From assembly GCA_020853095.1 (NCBI GenBank), contig JADYZN010000014.1, forward strand, positions 1 to 64,000: a stretch of DNA of 64,000 bases. The letters are read 5' to 3'. Position 1 is the stretch's first letter; every line of letters begins with the position of its first letter. The notes beneath the pieces were generated by a model that had not been told where the DNA came from, searched no databases, and worked only from the letters and a program-made list of their open reading frames with translations. This document shows positions 10,819 through 29,639 of the stretch, in pieces. The translations under genes and the position numbers were made by a program. The DNA comes from Phycisphaerales bacterium. GTDB taxonomy: Bacteria; Planctomycetota; Phycisphaerae; Tepidisphaerales; Tepidisphaeraceae.

Positions 10819-10885
10819 GAAAATCCGCTCCGGTTGTGCGAATTAACTGTAGTCGTGCTGATGTCCGGAGGCAAATGCACATCAT

Positions 10886-10926: not shown

Positions 10927-12735
10927 TTACAGCCGACTGATGAGCAGCTCGCGCTGGAAGACCATTTCCTTGGGAAGGTCGCCGGCGAGTTTGAGGAACA
11001 ATTCCTCCTGGCTGAGAATTTCGGCTTTGAATTCAGGGTTGTCGATGGTCTGCATTGCCAGAAAATCCGCCGGGGTGATGTTGAGACCTTCGAGGTCGAT
11101 GTCCTGGACGCGGGGCATCCAGCCCAGCGGCGTTTCAACCGCGTAGGCCCGACCGTGGCAGCGGTCGATGATCCACTTGAGGACGCGCATGTTTTCGCCA
11201 AAGCCCGGCCACATGAACCGGCCCTGGTCGTCCTTGCGGAACCAGTTGACGTGAAAGATGCGGGGGCAATCCTTCATCTTTTTGCGCATCCGGAACCAGT
11301 GGACGAGGTAGTCGCGGATGTTGTAGCCGATGAACGGGAGCATGGCCATCGGGTCTCGCCGGACAACGCCGACCTGGCCGGTGGCTGCGGCGGTGGTTTC
11401 CGAACCGAGCGTGGCGCCCAGATAAACACCGTGGACCCAGTTGAAGGCCTGATAGACCAGCGGGATGGCGCGGGAGCGCCGACCGCCGAAGATGATGGCC
11501 GAGACCGGCACGCCGGCGGGATCGTTGGTGGCCGGGTCGAGCGCGGGATTATTCACCACGGGCGCGGTGAACCGGCTGTTGGGGTGGGCGGCTTTGCGGC
11601 CGCAATCCGGAGTCCATTTCTGGCCGGTCCAGTCGATGCATTCCTTTGGAGGTTCTTCGGTTTTGCCTTCCCACCAGACATCCCCATCGCCCAGCAATGC
11701 GACGTTGGTGTAGATGGAGTTTTTGGCCATGGTGGTCATGGCGTTGGGGTTGGTGTGATAGTTGGTTCCGGGGACGACGCCGAAATAGCCGGCTTCGGGG
11801 TTGATGGCGCGCAGCCGGCCGGTTTTTTCATCGACCCACATCCACACGATGTCATCCCCGACGGTGGTGATTTTCCATCCTTCCTCGCGATATCGCTGGG
11901 GCGGGATGAGCATCGCGAAATTGGTTTTGCCGCAGGCGCTGGGGAAGGCGGCGGCGACGTAGGTTTTTTCGCCGTTGGGGGCCGTGGCGCCCATCAGGAG
12001 CATGTGCTCGGCCATCCATTCCTGCTGGTGGCCCAGATAGCTGGCGATGCGAAGTGCGAGACATTTCTTGCCCAGCAGCGCGTTGCCGCCATAACCGGAG
12101 CCGAAGGACCAGATGGTGTTGTCGATCGGGAAATGGCAGATGTAACGACGTTCGGGGTTGCAGTCGCCGACGCTGTGCAGGCAGCGGGTGAATTCCTCGC
12201 TGTCGCCCAGTTGTTTCCAGGCGACATCCCCCATGCGGGTCATGATGCTCATGGAGACCGCGACATCGAGCTAATCGGTCAGCTCGATGCCGACCTTGGC
12301 CAGCGGCGATCCGATCGGCCCCATGACAAACGGACAGACGTACATCGTGCGGCCGCGCATGCACCCGTCGAACAGCGGCCTCAGCTTGGCGTAGGCGGCC
12401 TTGTCGTTCATCCAGTTGTTGGTCGGCCCGACCACGTCTTCGGAGGGGGTGCAGATGAAGGTCAGATGTTCGGAACGGGCAACGTCGTTCTGGTTGGAAC
12501 GGTGCAGATAGCAGCCGGGGAGTTTTTGTTGATTGAGCTGGATGAAGACGTTGTCCTTGACGCCTTGTTCAAACATCGACTGGCGTTCCTGGGCGGAACC
12601 ATCGCACCAGTAAACCTGATCGGGTTTGCACAGTTGGATGCACTGGTCGATCCATTGCTGGACGAGCGGATTGAGATCGTTCGGTCGGGTGTTGTGGGAT
12701 TTGGCGGGAGGAGGACGAACGGCTGCGGCGGTCAT
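10927..12735 (-). pseudogene. pckG: GTP-dependent phosphoenolpyruvate carboxykinase, interrupted by an in-frame TAG
   Basis: PEP carboxykinase converts oxaloacetate and GTP to PEP, CO2 and GDP in gluconeogenesis. Read through, the frame gives about 601 aa, the normal length of the GTP family. It has GVKDNVFIQ and GPIGSPLAKVG in the N-terminal part. [13 protein letters not shown] and the P-loop [13 protein letters not shown] with its reactive Cys lie in the C-terminal part. At 12271-12273 a TAG splits it into 154 and about 446 residues without any change of frame. In relatives this place reads Ser (TDSPY). An AAAGGAG stands before the ATG at 12735. It could be a recent nonsense mutation, a strain variant, a sequence error or a recoded stop. 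Internal re-initiation at ATG 12252 would give 441 aa but has no Shine-Dalgarno. TAG ends other genes here (fliG, flgB, tpiA), so general reassignment is unlikely. Confidence 0.85.
12271..12273 (-). other. In-frame TAG stop inside pckG
   Basis: The codon order on the minus strand is CTG ACC GAT TAG CTC GAT GTC GCG GTC, and both sides keep PEP carboxykinase similarity in the same frame. A Ser codon TCG would become TAG by one base change. The neighbouring codons (Leu, Asp) also differ from the TDSPY pattern of known enzymes. Confidence 0.9.
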
Positions 12736-12771
12736 GGCACGACTCCTTTTGTTGGCCGGACTTCTGGCCGG

Positions 12772-12825: not shown

Positions 12826-12843
12826 TTGTGAATTTATTCACAA
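12826..12843. promoter_or_regulatory. Perfect CRP-type dyad (TGTGA-N6-TCACA)
   Basis: The 18-bp sequence TTGTGAATTTATTCACAA has 8-bp perfect arms and matches the CRP/FNR-superfamily consensus TGTGA-N6-TCACA. It lies between the divergent pckG and patatin-like genes. Its place suits control of gluconeogenesis by a CRP-type protein. An Rrf2 or other dimeric regulator could also use it. Confidence 0.55.
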
Positions 12844-12854
12844 TTATCATCGGC

Positions 12855-12878
12855 AAATCGGACAAGTCAATCCGATTT
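12855..12878. promoter_or_regulatory. Second operator-like dyad (8-8-8)
   Basis: AAATCGGA (12855-12862) and TCCGATTT (12871-12878) form perfect inverted arms around an 8-bp spacer. The right arm touches the -35 box of the candidate patatin-gene promoter, a position typical of a repressor site. The binding protein is unknown. Confidence 0.45.
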
Positions 12879-12959: not shown

Positions 12960-14408
12960 ATGTCTTACATCAAATTTGCGGCGGCAGTCTCTGTGGCCGC
13001 GGTGATTGGATGCAGCAACGTCAACGTGCCGTTGAATGGTCCGGCAGTGGCGTTGGAAGATCGGGTTGGAAATCAGACCCGTGCCGCGTTGCATGCGCAA
13101 ATTGCGCCGTTGGATGCGCGCGGTGGGACGGTGGTTCGGCCGCGACGATGGGGACGACCTTTGGGGGCGTCGGCGGAGGTTGCGGCAAGCCGGCCTGCGG
13201 TGAAGGAAGACCCTCGTCACGATGGATATTTTGTCGGGGTTGCGATCAGCGGCGGGGGGTCGCGTTCGGCGAATTTTTCGGCCGCGTGTTTGTTCCAGTT
13301 GCAGCGGATCGGGTTGATGGAACACGTGGATTATCTCTCATCCGTCAGCGGTGGTTCGTTGACGGCGGCCTGTTATTGCCTGTGGGGTGATCAGTGGAAC
13401 CTCGCCAACGCGCAGGCCAAATTGTCGCACTCATTTGCCACGGACATGATCGTTGATTTTCTGATGCCATGGAACATGGTGGCGCTGGGGATCAGCGATT
13501 ACGACCGCAGCGACCTGCTGGCAAAGAGCCTGCGCAAGACGCTGTTCACGCAGGATGGGCATGAGTTGACGTTCGGGGATTTGCGAAACGACCGGCCTCA
13601 TCTGCTGATCAACGCGACGGATTTGCAATCGGGCCGGCGTTTCGTGTTCTGCAACGAATCGTTTGACGAGATCAATTCGGACCTGGCGAAATATCCCATG
13701 GCGTATGCGGTGGCGGCCAGCTCGGCGGTGCCGGTGGTGATGCACCAGGTGACGTTGCGCGATTATTCAACCATTTTCAAACAGTATCGACACCTGGTGG
13801 ATGGGGGCGTGGTGGACAATCTGGGCGTGCAGACGCTGGCCGAGGTGTACGAGGCCCATCTGCGCGATGCCGAGGATGCTGGCGGGCCATCGCCCTATCC
13901 GCGCGGTGCGGTGTTGATCGTGATCGACGCGGCGACGAACAACGACTCGCAGATTTCAAGCAAGAGCGATACGGGGATCCTGGAGACGTTGCAGGCGGGG
14001 GCGGGAGTGGCGACGAGGAATCTGCTCAATCGATCCAGCACTGCGACGCTGGCGGAGATGATCGTCAAGTATTCGCCCGATACGGTGGATGCCAAAACCC
14101 TGCGTCAGCAGATGTGGGCGTTGCAGCGGGATGGGTACGTCGAGATGCGCGATCGCGATGGCCGGCCGGTTCGGATCGTGCATCTTTCGATAAGCCGGGT
14201 GGCGGAGTTGAGCAAGCTGCCGTTTCACGGTTTTGGCGAGAGCCTGAACAACATCCAGACCTATTTCAACATCGACCCCACGGAGGCGTATTACCTTTAT
14301 CAGGCGGCCGACCTGCTGGTGGAACAGAAATTCAAGCCGGTGCTGGATCGCATCGCCGAAGATGTGCGGGCCGCCAGCACGCAACCGGCGAGCGAGGGCC
14401 AGCGGTAA
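12960..14408 (+). CDS. Patatin-like phospholipase lipoprotein
   Basis: This is a patatin-family lipid acyl hydrolase with a Ser-Asp dyad. GVAISGGGSRSANF gives the oxyanion-hole motif, SSVSGGSLTAA the nucleophile elbow and DGGVVDNLG the catalytic Asp. The start chosen is ATG 12960, because MSYIKFAAAVSVAAVIGC is a lipoprotein signal with a lipobox; the product is 482 aa. ATG 12912 in frame would lengthen the N-terminal region by 16 residues, and neither has a Shine-Dalgarno. It is probably attached to the envelope and may act on membrane lipids. It diverges from pckG and converges with the VCBS-repeat gene with only 2 bp between stops. Confidence 0.82.
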   Translation: MSYIKFAAAVSVAAVIGCSNVNVPLNGPAVALEDRVGNQTRAALHAQIAPLDARGGTVVRPRRWGRPLGASAEVAASRPAVKEDPRHDGYFVGVAISGGGSRSANFSAACLFQLQRIGLMEHVDYLSSVSGGSLTAACYCLWGDQWNLANAQAKLSHSFATDMIVDFLMPWNMVALGISDYDRSDLLAKSLRKTLFTQDGHELTFGDLRNDRPHLLINATDLQSGRRFVFCNESFDEINSDLAKYPMAYAVAASSAVPVVMHQVTLRDYSTIFKQYRHLVDGGVVDNLGVQTLAEVYEAHLRDAEDAGGPSPYPRGAVLIVIDAATNNDSQISSKSDTGILETLQAGAGVATRNLLNRSSTATLAEMIVKYSPDTVDAKTLRQQMWALQRDGYVEMRDRDGRPVRIVHLSISRVAELSKLPFHGFGESLNNIQTYFNIDPTEAYYLYQAADLLVEQKFKPVLDRIAEDVRAASTQPASEGQR

Positions 14409-14410
14409 CG

Positions 14411-17140
14411 TCACAGATCATAGCTGAGCGTGACGCGGGTGATGCGCGGGGTGGCAGCGCTGTTGGGGGAGGAGAGTCTCAGGCGATACTGCACGAATTT
14501 GGACGCATTGAAGTTGGCCGGGATGTTGCCCGGCGCGGTGAAATAGGTGTCGGGGCCTGCGGGGCCGGTCCAGGGGGCCTTGGCGAGCGATTCAGGTGAA
14601 TCGGCGGTGCGCAACTGGGCATCGACGCTGGTTGCGGGGGGAAGTTGTGCCTCCCATTCGATTTTGCGCAAGGTGGCCGGGCCTTCCAATGGATGCGGTT
14701 CGGAGACGTAGTATTCGTGCGGCGAGCGGTCCATGATGTTGCCCGGGCCGGGGCTGACCATGCCGTGCGGGCCGGCGGTGGGGAGCAGGGTGATGCGCCG
14801 TTCGTCAAAGCCTTCGGGTGAGTTCCACCAGATGCGGGACCAGCCGACGTGGTCGCCGTGGTGCTTGTGGTTGGCGACGACCAGATCGACCCAGCCATCC
14901 CCGTTGAGATCGGCGGCGAAATCGCCGGAAGCGGAGTGATTGAACAGCCGGGTGTATCGTTCCTTGCTGAATCCGCGCCCGCCGGCGTTCAGATACAGAT
15001 ACGAGTCGATGTCGCGGCGGTGTCGGCCATCCGTGTAGTTGCCGACGAACAGATCCAGGTGTCCATCGTTGTTGAAATCGGCGATCGACATGGAATTGAC
15101 GGCTTCGGCCGGCAGGATGGTGCAGCGGTCTTCGCGCAGACCATCGGGGCCGTTCCAGAAGATGTAGACGAACGAGTCGTGCGGCCCGACGGACGACGCG
15201 GCGTGACCGCCCATCACCAGGTCGAGATATCCATCCCCATCCAGATCGGCCGCGCGGGCGCTGCAGGCATGGCGAACGGCGATCTTTTGTGATCGTTTGA
15301 TGTCATACCCCTGCGGTCCGCCCCAGAGAATCAGGCTGTGATCGCTGGCGATCAGGGGAAGAATCAGGTCCAGCCATCCATCGTGATTCAGATCCGCCAA
15401 GTAGATGAAACGCACTTCGGTGTACGTCTGGCCATCGAGTTCGAGCTTGATGCGCTGGGGGTTGGTCGTATCGAACCCGTTGGGACCTTGGCGGAAAATG
15501 GTCAGCTCATTGTTCTGGAAGCCGGCAAAGAGCAGTTCAAGATATCCATCGTGGTCGATGTCCCCGCACGCGATGCCATGGGCGCGGGTGGTGGCCAGGG
15601 TTTGCGTGGGCCGATTGGCGAAACCCTTGTCGGTTTGCAGATAGATGTATGAACCGGGGTCCCGGTCGATGGAATTTTCGGCGGTGTTGGCGAAGGCGAC
15701 ATCTACGATGCCGTCGTCATTGAGGTCGGTGCAGACCGCGACGGTGGCGCCCCAGCCGGGCAGGTCGATGCGACGATCGACATCGTACCCATCCGGGCCG
15801 CCGAGGTAGGCGGTGGCGGGGATGTTGCCCAGTTTGTTTCGTCCCTGGCGGTTGATCAGCAGAAGCTCATCCTGATTTGATCCGGGGCGGCGAACGCAAA
15901 AACCCTGCTGGGCATCGTGTGCTTCAACTTGCTGCCAGAGGCTGGGTTTGCGGCCGGCCAGTCGATAAATCAACGCGGTGGTGGTGAACCGTTCATCGTT
16001 AAAGGCCTGGCAAATCGTGACTTCCAGGCGGCCATCCCCGTCAAAATCGCCGATGACGACATCGGCGGCCCGCGCGCTGGGGAGATGAATGCGTTCGCCG
16101 GTGAATCCTTTGGCGCCACCCCAGAAAATCCATGAGCTTTCCTGGCCGTTGTTGGGATCGCGGCAGGCCAGCGCCAGATCGAGATGGCCATCGCCATCCA
16201 GATCGGCGGCCGCGATGGAATAGGCCTGCGGGCAATTCAGGTGGATGGGCTGGCCGATTTTCCGGCCGGAATGGATCGGGACCAGATACGCCGAATCGGG
16301 CCGTGCGACAAAAACATGCGGCACGCCCTGTATCCCAATCACCTTGGGCAGCGGATGGGCATCCTCGGCCCATTCCATCATGCCGTTGGGGGCGACGGGC
16401 TTGGGCGCATTGGGTTTGGCGTCGGCCGGCGCATCGCCGTCGATGGGCAGCAACGTCGATCGCTCGATGGAGAGGCCATCTTTGCCGCCCCACAAAATAC
16501 GGGTGGTTCCATCGCGATCACGGAGAATCAGGTCGGCGAATCCATCGCCATCCAGGTCGGCCGAGGCCAGCCGGTCGGTGCTGACCGGCAGATCGGTGAA
16601 TCGACTCCGCTCAAGTCCCAGGTCGTGCTGGTAAAAAACCCGCAACTGGTCGCGGCATTGAACCGCCACATCTGCCTTGCCGTCGCCGTTGAAGTCTCCG
16701 ATGGCCGTTGAATAGGCCAGCGGCGCGGGGAAATATTGCACGGCCTGTTCGCCAAAGCCATGATCGCCGGCGAAATAGGCCAGGGCGTTGACATCCCAGG
16801 TGATGCCATTGTACCAGCGCCCGATGAACAGATCCGGCCGGCCATCCTGATTCAGGTCGGCAAAGTCGGCGCAGCTGGCCCCGTTGGTGGGGATGGACAA
16901 CCGTTCAAATTGATCGCGGTTCCAGCGATACAGATACGAAGGTGGAATTTCCCAGTGATTCTGGCTGTTGCAGAACAGCAGCTCAACGTATCCGTCGGCG
17001 TTCAAGTCATATTGATGGATCCGCTGAAGCACGCCGGCGCGCGAGACGTACAGATTCTGGCCGCCATTGCCGAATGTGCCCCGCCGAAATGCTTCAAATC
17101 CCTTGGTGGTCCATTGACGGGGTGGTGTCGGTGAGTTCAT
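14411..17140 (-). CDS. Large FG-GAP/VCBS beta-propeller repeat protein
   Basis: The 909-aa product consists of about a dozen repeats carrying Ca-binding D-x-[ND]-x-DG loops such as DFNGDGKADVAV, DLDGDGFADLIL, DLDGDGHLDLAL, DLNHDGWLDLIL and DLDGDGYLDLVM. These fold into beta-propellers like those of integrin alpha chains. The last about 130 residues (from around DRSPHEYYVSEPHPLEG) lack the repeat and may form a beta-sandwich. No signal peptide is visible at the ATG at 17140. That ATG overlaps the TGA of the upstream hydrolase gene (ATGA), so translation is probably coupled. The role may be carbohydrate or protein binding; this is inference. Confidence 0.82.
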   Translation of the reverse strand: MNSPTPPRQWTTKGFEAFRRGTFGNGGQNLYVSRAGVLQRIHQYDLNADGYVELLFCNSQNHWEIPPSYLYRWNRDQFERLSIPTNGASCADFADLNQDGRPDLFIGRWYNGITWDVNALAYFAGDHGFGEQAVQYFPAPLAYSTAIGDFNGDGKADVAVQCRDQLRVFYQHDLGLERSRFTDLPVSTDRLASADLDGDGFADLILRDRDGTTRILWGGKDGLSIERSTLLPIDGDAPADAKPNAPKPVAPNGMMEWAEDAHPLPKVIGIQGVPHVFVARPDSAYLVPIHSGRKIGQPIHLNCPQAYSIAAADLDGDGHLDLALACRDPNNGQESSWIFWGGAKGFTGERIHLPSARAADVVIGDFDGDGRLEVTICQAFNDERFTTTALIYRLAGRKPSLWQQVEAHDAQQGFCVRRPGSNQDELLLINRQGRNKLGNIPATAYLGGPDGYDVDRRIDLPGWGATVAVCTDLNDDGIVDVAFANTAENSIDRDPGSYIYLQTDKGFANRPTQTLATTRAHGIACGDIDHDGYLELLFAGFQNNELTIFRQGPNGFDTTNPQRIKLELDGQTYTEVRFIYLADLNHDGWLDLILPLIASDHSLILWGGPQGYDIKRSQKIAVRHACSARAADLDGDGYLDLVMGGHAASSVGPHDSFVYIFWNGPDGLREDRCTILPAEAVNSMSIADFNNDGHLDLFVGNYTDGRHRRDIDSYLYLNAGGRGFSKERYTRLFNHSASGDFAADLNGDGWVDLVVANHKHHGDHVGWSRIWWNSPEGFDERRITLLPTAGPHGMVSPGPGNIMDRSPHEYYVSEPHPLEGPATLRKIEWEAQLPPATSVDAQLRTADSPESLAKAPWTGPAGPDTYFTAPGNIPANFNASKFVQYRLRLSSPNSAATPRITRVTLSYDL

Positions 17141-18195
17141 GTTGTCAATAATTTCGTGAGCCACGGCACCGACCGGGTTCCATGCCAGCGGTGGTTGCCT
17201 TCAAAGACATCGTGTTGGAGATTTTTGCCAGCGCCAAACAGTCGATACGCCCTGGCCGCGATTCGCATCTGTGGAAGGACGTTGTTCACGCCGTCCGCGC
17301 CATTCAATGGGTCCTGCGTTCCGGTTTCGACCATCAGCGGACGGGGTGCGATCATCGCCGCCAGATCGCCCATGTCAATGGTTTCATACAGGTGGGGGAC
17401 GTAGTTGCACGAACAATTTCCAAACCGTTCCAGCAACGCCTGTTGATAGCCGTAAAAATAGCCGCTGACGACCGCGCCGCGGATGCGATCGTCCAGCGCG
17501 GTGGTCCAGAGGGTTTGCAAACCGCCGCCGGACAGGCCAGCGCATCCGATTCGGTCGGCGTCGCAATCCTTGCGGGTTTGGATGTAATCGATCAACCGGT
17601 GCAATTCCCATGCCCACATGCCGGTGACGGTCTGGCCCAGCGGATGGCCCATGTTGTTCAGCCAGGTGCAGGAGGAGGCCAGCGGATCGCCGCGGGCGGG
17701 TTCTTCCTGACGTTCGCCAAATCCGCGGGCATCGGGGCAGAAGCTGATCAGGCCGGCCCTGGCGAATTGCACGCCGTAATCGTAATTGTGATCGTCGATG
17801 GATTTCGCCACCTGTGGATTGTCGCGGATGCCGGCCACGGCGACTTTGCCACCGCCGCCGTGTCCGTGGGGGTTGATGACCGCCGCCGTGCGCCCGCGTG
17901 CGGATTTGGGGATCAGGACGAACAGCGGCATGATGATGCCCGGCTCGGTCTGAATCTCGACGCGCTGACGCCGATACTCGCCGCAGTCCACCTCATCGGT
18001 GATTTTCGGTTTCAGCGGACAGCGCACCATCGTGTCGTAACCGGTCAGCTCCATGAGTTTTTCGCGCAGTGCCTTGCGCCACTTGCGCCATTGGGCGGGG
18101 GTGGTGGCGCGAAGCCCCATGGATCGTTTCACACGTCCAAAGCGGCGGTGCATGGAGGGGAGGAGGGAATACTTGTTGATCTCTTGTGTGGCCAT
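17137..18195 (-). CDS. Alpha/beta hydrolase (acetyl-xylan-esterase/dienelactone-hydrolase type)
   Basis: The 352-aa protein has GCAGLSGGGLQT with the GxSxG nucleophile Ser. DPLNGADGV would hold the acidic residue and EGNHRWHGT the catalytic His. INPHGHGGGG precedes the core as in planctomycete esterases. The start is ATG 18195 (MATQEINKY); the frame is open upstream but with no family likeness. No signal peptide is seen. It is followed by the VCBS-repeat gene with a 4-bp overlap, so the two probably act together on one, perhaps glycan-related, substrate. Confidence 0.78.
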   Translation of the reverse strand: MATQEINKYSLLPSMHRRFGRVKRSMGLRATTPAQWRKWRKALREKLMELTGYDTMVRCPLKPKITDEVDCGEYRRQRVEIQTEPGIIMPLFVLIPKSARGRTAAVINPHGHGGGGKVAVAGIRDNPQVAKSIDDHNYDYGVQFARAGLISFCPDARGFGERQEEPARGDPLASSCTWLNNMGHPLGQTVTGMWAWELHRLIDYIQTRKDCDADRIGCAGLSGGGLQTLWTTALDDRIRGAVVSGYFYGYQQALLERFGNCSCNYVPHLYETIDMGDLAAMIAPRPLMVETGTQDPLNGADGVNNVLPQMRIAARAYRLFGAGKNLQHDVFEGNHRWHGTRSVPWLTKLLTT

Positions 18196-28901: not shown

Positions 28902-29639
28902 TTACATCACCATCCCGCCATCCACGCAAATCACCTGTCCGGTCACGTAACTGGCATCCGCACCGGCCAGGAACGACACCGCCGCCGCGATTTCATCGGG
29001 CACGCCGAACCGCTTCATCGGAATGTGCCCCTTGACCGTCTCCTTGATCTGGTCATTGAGCACGTCCGTCATGTCCGTGGTGATGAATCCCGGCGCCACG
29101 CAGTTGCAGGTGATGTTTTTGCCCGCCAGCTCCTTGGCCACGCTCTTGGACAGGCCGATCAGCCCCGCCTTGCTGGCGGCATAGTTGGCCTGTCCGGCGT
29201 TGCCCGCGACGCCCGCGACGCTGCTGATGTTGATGATCCGGCCGCCCTTGGACCGCATCATCGGCCGGGCGGCCGAGCGAATCGCCACGAACGCGCTTTT
29301 CAGGTTCGTATTGATCACCTGGTCGAAATCCGCATCCTCCATCCGCAGGATCAATCCATCCCGCGTGATGCCGGCGTTGTTGACCAGCACGTCCAGCCGG
29401 CCGTGCGCATCGGCGACTTTTTCAATCGCCCCGGCCAGCGCCTGCGAATCGGCGATGTCGCACGCCAGCGCCTCGGCCGAGCCGCCGGCGTCTTTCACCT
29501 GGGCGCAAATTTCCTGCAACTTGTCGGCGCTGCGCGCCACCGCCACCACGTGAAAACCATCCTTCGCCAGCCGGCGCACGATCGCCGCTCCGATCCCCCG
29601 TGATCCGCCGGTCACAAATGCCACTTTTTTCTGATCCAT
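28902..29639 (-). CDS. fabG: 3-oxoacyl-ACP reductase
   Basis: This is an SDR enzyme that reduces 3-oxoacyl-ACP with NADPH. It has TGGSRGIG near residue 10, NNAGITRDGLILRM, the catalytic Ser in NISSVAG and YAASKAGL with Tyr and Lys, and ends DGGMVM as FabG does. ATG 29639 gives 245 aa. A REP-like repeat lies just upstream between it and fabD. Confidence 0.95.
   Translation of the reverse strand: MDQKKVAFVTGGSRGIGAAIVRRLAKDGFHVVAVARSADKLQEICAQVKDAGGSAEALACDIADSQALAGAIEKVADAHGRLDVLVNNAGITRDGLILRMEDADFDQVINTNLKSAFVAIRSAARPMMRSKGGRIINISSVAGVAGNAGQANYAASKAGLIGLSKSVAKELAGKNITCNCVAPGFITTDMTDVLNDQIKETVKGHIPMKRFGVPDEIAAAVSFLAGADASYVTGQVICVDGGMVM

Follow-up and report, generated by a model that had tools for sequence, protein, structure and literature searches.

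The 64,000-nucleotide stretch of Phycisphaerales DNA analysed here (the window) raises the question of how a stop codon came to lie inside an otherwise well-preserved gene for GTP-dependent phosphoenolpyruvate carboxykinase (PEPCK), and what this would mean for the cell. The gene, pck (10927..12735, minus strand), comprises 602 codons followed by TAA and is broken at codon 155 by one in-frame TAG (12271..12273, minus). The initial annotation had described it as clean apart from this codon, and our searches agreed. The joined frame (12735..10927, minus) translates into 602 residues matching the Pfam profiles PEPCK_N (1.8e-85, 286.4 bits) and PEPCK_GTP (1.8e-158, 527.4 bits), each with a cut-off of 23.8, as well as NCBIfam NF003253, phosphoenolpyruvate carboxykinase (GTP), with 872.9 bits (cut-off 504). 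Both halves also score separately in Pfam, the PEPCK_N profile being divided into 1-126 and 134-217. The SGYGGN motif and the P-loop (FPSACGKTN) are undamaged, and the translation matches solved GTP-PEPCK structures along its whole length, for example chain 9e34_A, with which both motifs align. Ahead of the stop lies an N-terminal fragment of 154 residues (12274..12735, minus), with an AAGGAG ribosome-binding site (12743..12748, minus) upstream of the ATG at 12735. Behind it, a C-terminal open frame of 441 amino acids (10927..12252, minus) starts at an in-frame ATG soon after the TAG and carries SGYGGN and the P-loop.

For comparison within the genus one other genome, G001, was available; its pck is intact and encodes a protein 94% identical to that of the window. 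The two genes differ at 183 bases, 138 of them at third codon positions, and given this bias and the protein identity the frame is not due to chance. The TAG replaces a serine found in 21 of 21 relatives, as had been claimed from the sequence; the codon is TCA in G001 and TCG in several others, none of the 21 has a stop there, and no other listed relative has a stop anywhere inside pck. Around this position, ACC GAT TCA CTC TAT GTC in G001 corresponds to ACC GAT TAG CTC GAT GTC in the window. A further remark, that Leu-Asp stands next to the stop in place of Pro-Tyr, held for the second residue and failed for the first: GAT (12265..12267, minus) encodes Asp157, a position occupied by Tyr in all 21 relatives, whereas most family relatives read T-D-S-L-Y-V here, and Leu156 is thus normal for the lineage. 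Set against GTP-dependent PEPCKs in general (PF17297 and PF00821; NF003253), the gene shares the full domain order and both motifs, and differs in the TAG at residue 155 and in Asp replacing the invariant Tyr157.

The initial annotation had also considered that decay may have begun. Among positions otherwise invariant in the family, pck departs at three only, namely the stop at 155, Tyr157Asp and Gly62Asn. Since Asn62 is the only departure beyond those next to the stop, the gene is not decaying elsewhere. Of 392 genomes sampled across the phylum, 124 had a PEPCK match, and an internal stop occurred in the window genome and in G345 only. The G345 gene (C185:71500-74800) has a real in-frame TAG near the N-terminus (GSQAE*DGLM), at another position and independent of that in the window. 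A TGA in the pck of G197 was rejected as an interruption, because it precedes the start codon.

A full-length enzyme could still be made if the TAG were read through, by amber suppression or by the recoding that the initial annotation had envisaged, and the conservation of the remaining gene and its intact promoter region would suit such a reading. However, none of the 44 tRNA genes in the assembly, which is about 96% complete, has a CUA anticodon, and PylS was not found in the genome. TAG behaves as an ordinary terminator, ending 33 of 203 coding-like frames in a 464-kb DNA sample, and no other gene is interrupted in the 53 kb that are collinear with G001. Read-through would moreover leave Tyr157Asp unexplained, and the genus relative has Ser at the position of the stop. 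The literature on amber reading in planctomycetes provided nothing decisive. We consider read-through very unlikely, and it seems extremely unlikely that the TAG is decoded efficiently to give full-length PEPCK with an inserted residue at 155 and Asp157, which would mean that this Phycisphaerales bacterium decodes amber by a route that has escaped detection. A two-piece enzyme, in which translation would restart at the ATG at 12252 and the 154- and 441-residue pieces would assemble, could make use of the motifs retained in the C-terminal piece and of the closeness of that ATG to the stop. The break, however, cuts through the interior of the N-terminal domain, between the two parts of the PEPCK_N match, and no relative is split at the same place; we give this arrangement almost no credence.

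The explanation that we favour concerns an inverted repeat at the stop. In the window it reads CATCGAGCT-GACCGATT-AGCTCGATG (12289-12264, minus), with a 5' arm (12281..12289, minus) and a 3' arm (12264..12272, minus) separated by an 8-nt spacer. The 5' arm and the spacer are unaltered relative to G001, and all three differences are confined to the 3' arm, which is CACTCTATG in G001. Each of them introduces the base that completes the repeat, so that a pre-existing imperfect repeat has become a perfect one by substitutions within a single arm, as is characteristic of template switching. These three base differences in one 9-bp arm, a count that falls to two should the ancestral codon have been the TCG seen in several relatives, yield both the stop and Tyr157Asp. 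The predicted hairpin has an energy of -10.1 kcal/mol in the window, compared with -3.3 (the G001 sequence) and -4.8 for the unaltered versions.

With moderate confidence, we propose that a single short-range template switch (quasipalindrome correction) broke an otherwise functional, single-copy pck, the ancestral sequence being deduced from a single close relative together with others further removed. During DNA synthesis, the imperfect repeat CATCGAGCT...C(A/G)CTCTATG probably allowed the nascent strand to fold back, and the 5' arm, the presumed template, would have been copied in place of the true template. The arms would thereby have been made perfect, and one step would have turned Ser155 into TAG and Tyr157 into Asp. 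E. coli provides documented cases of quasipalindrome template switching (PMC7202029), in which, with lacZ reporters, an imperfect repeat likewise becomes perfect in one event that alters several bases at once; those reporters score 4-bp frameshifts, whereas the pck change consists of substitutions only and is known only as a sequence difference in an assembly. In yeast coding genes, template switching at inverted repeats involves arms of 7-16 bp (PMC8604942), and the homogenised arms resemble the pck case in that one of the two arms carries a multinucleotide change that alters one or two residues, the repeat being short. The difference is that one codon of pck, a gene of central metabolism, became a stop.

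We then asked how often such an arm is met by chance. Substitutions of the same spacing, placed at random in the G001 sequence, gave one in 217 of 250000 trials (0.087%) with three changes, and in 237 of 250000 trials (0.095%) for the two-substitution version; these values of about 0.09% overstate the strength of the case, because the site was picked for its stop and one substitution, or two starting from TCA, was therefore already given. The aligned window contains 5861 overlapping substitution sub-clusters, of which the one in pck is unique in combining three substitutions with a perfect 9-bp arm. The alignment as a whole had no general excess of repeat-perfecting clusters (5 sub-clusters with arms of at least 8, compared with 4-16 per randomised set), so the argument rests on a single cluster that was itself chosen for holding the stop. 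Relative to G001, a 9-bp inverted repeat is also completed by each of two weaker clusters of two substitutions, at window positions 29244 and 41374, and these lie within random expectation.

An alternative is an ordinary nonsense mutation accompanied by a missense mutation that arose independently at a distance of two codons, with the perfect repeat being coincidental. Both changes can be reached by simple substitutions in the common codons TCG and TAT, and the window holds 14 perfect 9-bp repeats with loops of 3-12 nt. Independence would nevertheless put two changes at invariant positions within 5 bases of each other, although the rest of the 602 codons has almost no such change, and would have them complete a 9-bp repeat by a chance of about 0.1%. 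We regard this combination as unlikely.

More weight attaches to the possibility that the change arose outside the cell, either because the near-palindrome folded back and was filled in while the library was prepared, or by the assembler picking a minor strain variant, in which case the organism's pck would be intact. False substitutions at near-palindromes are a known fault of short-read libraries (PMC10908179); these match the complementary arm, as in pck, and are usually of low allele frequency, whereas the pck change is in the consensus. The genome is assembled in 77 contigs and its named relatives are metagenome bins. In addition, pck is a single-copy gene that is conserved in the family and has no other decay, and the aligned 53 kb are free of further interruptions, all of which would suit an artefact. 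On the other hand, low-frequency errors should, except at low coverage, lose the vote in a consensus, a consensus change on a contig of 126 kb makes an artefact less likely, and G345 shows that an interrupted pck occurs in another Planctomycetota genome. An artefact is in our view possible, if rather doubtful. One quasipalindrome event is the best reading of the sequence in either case, and would represent a recent nonsense mutation or a library or assembly artefact of the same chemistry.

If the change is real, it is recent, and we infer that a single event present in the living population would consequently leave the cell without PEPCK. The 154 residues that remain would lack both SGYGGN and the P-loop, and the 3.6-Mb assembly holds this one copy, with no second PEPCK. 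Neither an ATP-type PEPCK nor a PEP carboxylase was found in the genome. In that case the cell would lose the flow between oxaloacetate and PEP. Pyruvate phosphate dikinase (PPDK), which the initial annotation had named as a possible stand-in, is intact (906 amino acids; TIGR01828, 1382.7 bits), so that conversion of pyruvate to PEP is still possible. PPDK makes PEP from pyruvate and not directly from oxaloacetate. The C-terminal region of a pyruvate carboxylase is also present, at the edge of one of the genome stretches examined. A real event would be a well-resolved natural example of a hairpin-templated mutation that knocks out a gene of central metabolism in one step, ordinary in kind yet a neat one-event case, and would imply that a stop with an adjacent missense change need not signal progressive decay or recoding. 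If it is an artefact, near-palindromes may create false pseudogenes in metagenome assemblies.

Upstream of the gene, a promoter and a dyad are both in place, as had been reported. The promoter is of the sigma-70-like type, TTGACT-16 nt-GATAAT (12843..12870, minus), and is conserved in G001 as TTGACA-17 nt-GATAAT. The dyad TTGTGAATAAATTCACAA (12826..12843, minus) directly follows GATAAT, touching the -10 element, and is conserved upstream of the G001 pck. Its earlier assignment to CRP was set aside, as the full TTGTGAA-N4-TTCACAA form and the presence of a rex gene suit Rex better. Its sequence fits the consensus TTGTGAAW4TTCACAA of Rex operators (PMC2883068), and the genome encodes a Rex protein (NF003995, 267 bits; cut-off 126). 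The dyad is one of only two exact matches in the genome, the other lying within a birA reading frame. Rex is thus the more likely regulator of pck, with the putative operator at its promoter. The contact of the predicted site with the -10 element suggests repression, and a Rex-type operator at this position suggests control of PEPCK by the NADH/NAD+ ratio, that is, by redox state, in Phycisphaerales. We found nothing decisive in the literature on Rex control of pck. A Rex-type site with one mismatch is conserved in both genomes, that of the window (G000 C10:29745-29762) and G001 (C114:38015-38032), adjoining a reading frame that by eye resembles CBS-domain proteins.

Finally, collinearity with the G001 contig (C109) ends at window position 10882, just beyond the 3' end of pck. 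To the left of this point the window matches another G001 contig (C3:26022-29473) with 81% identity, which reflects either a rearrangement or an assembly join. On the other side of pck, a divergent gene for a patatin-like phospholipase (12960-14408) adjoins the gene for a large FG-GAP repeat protein of 917 amino acids (14411-17164, minus).
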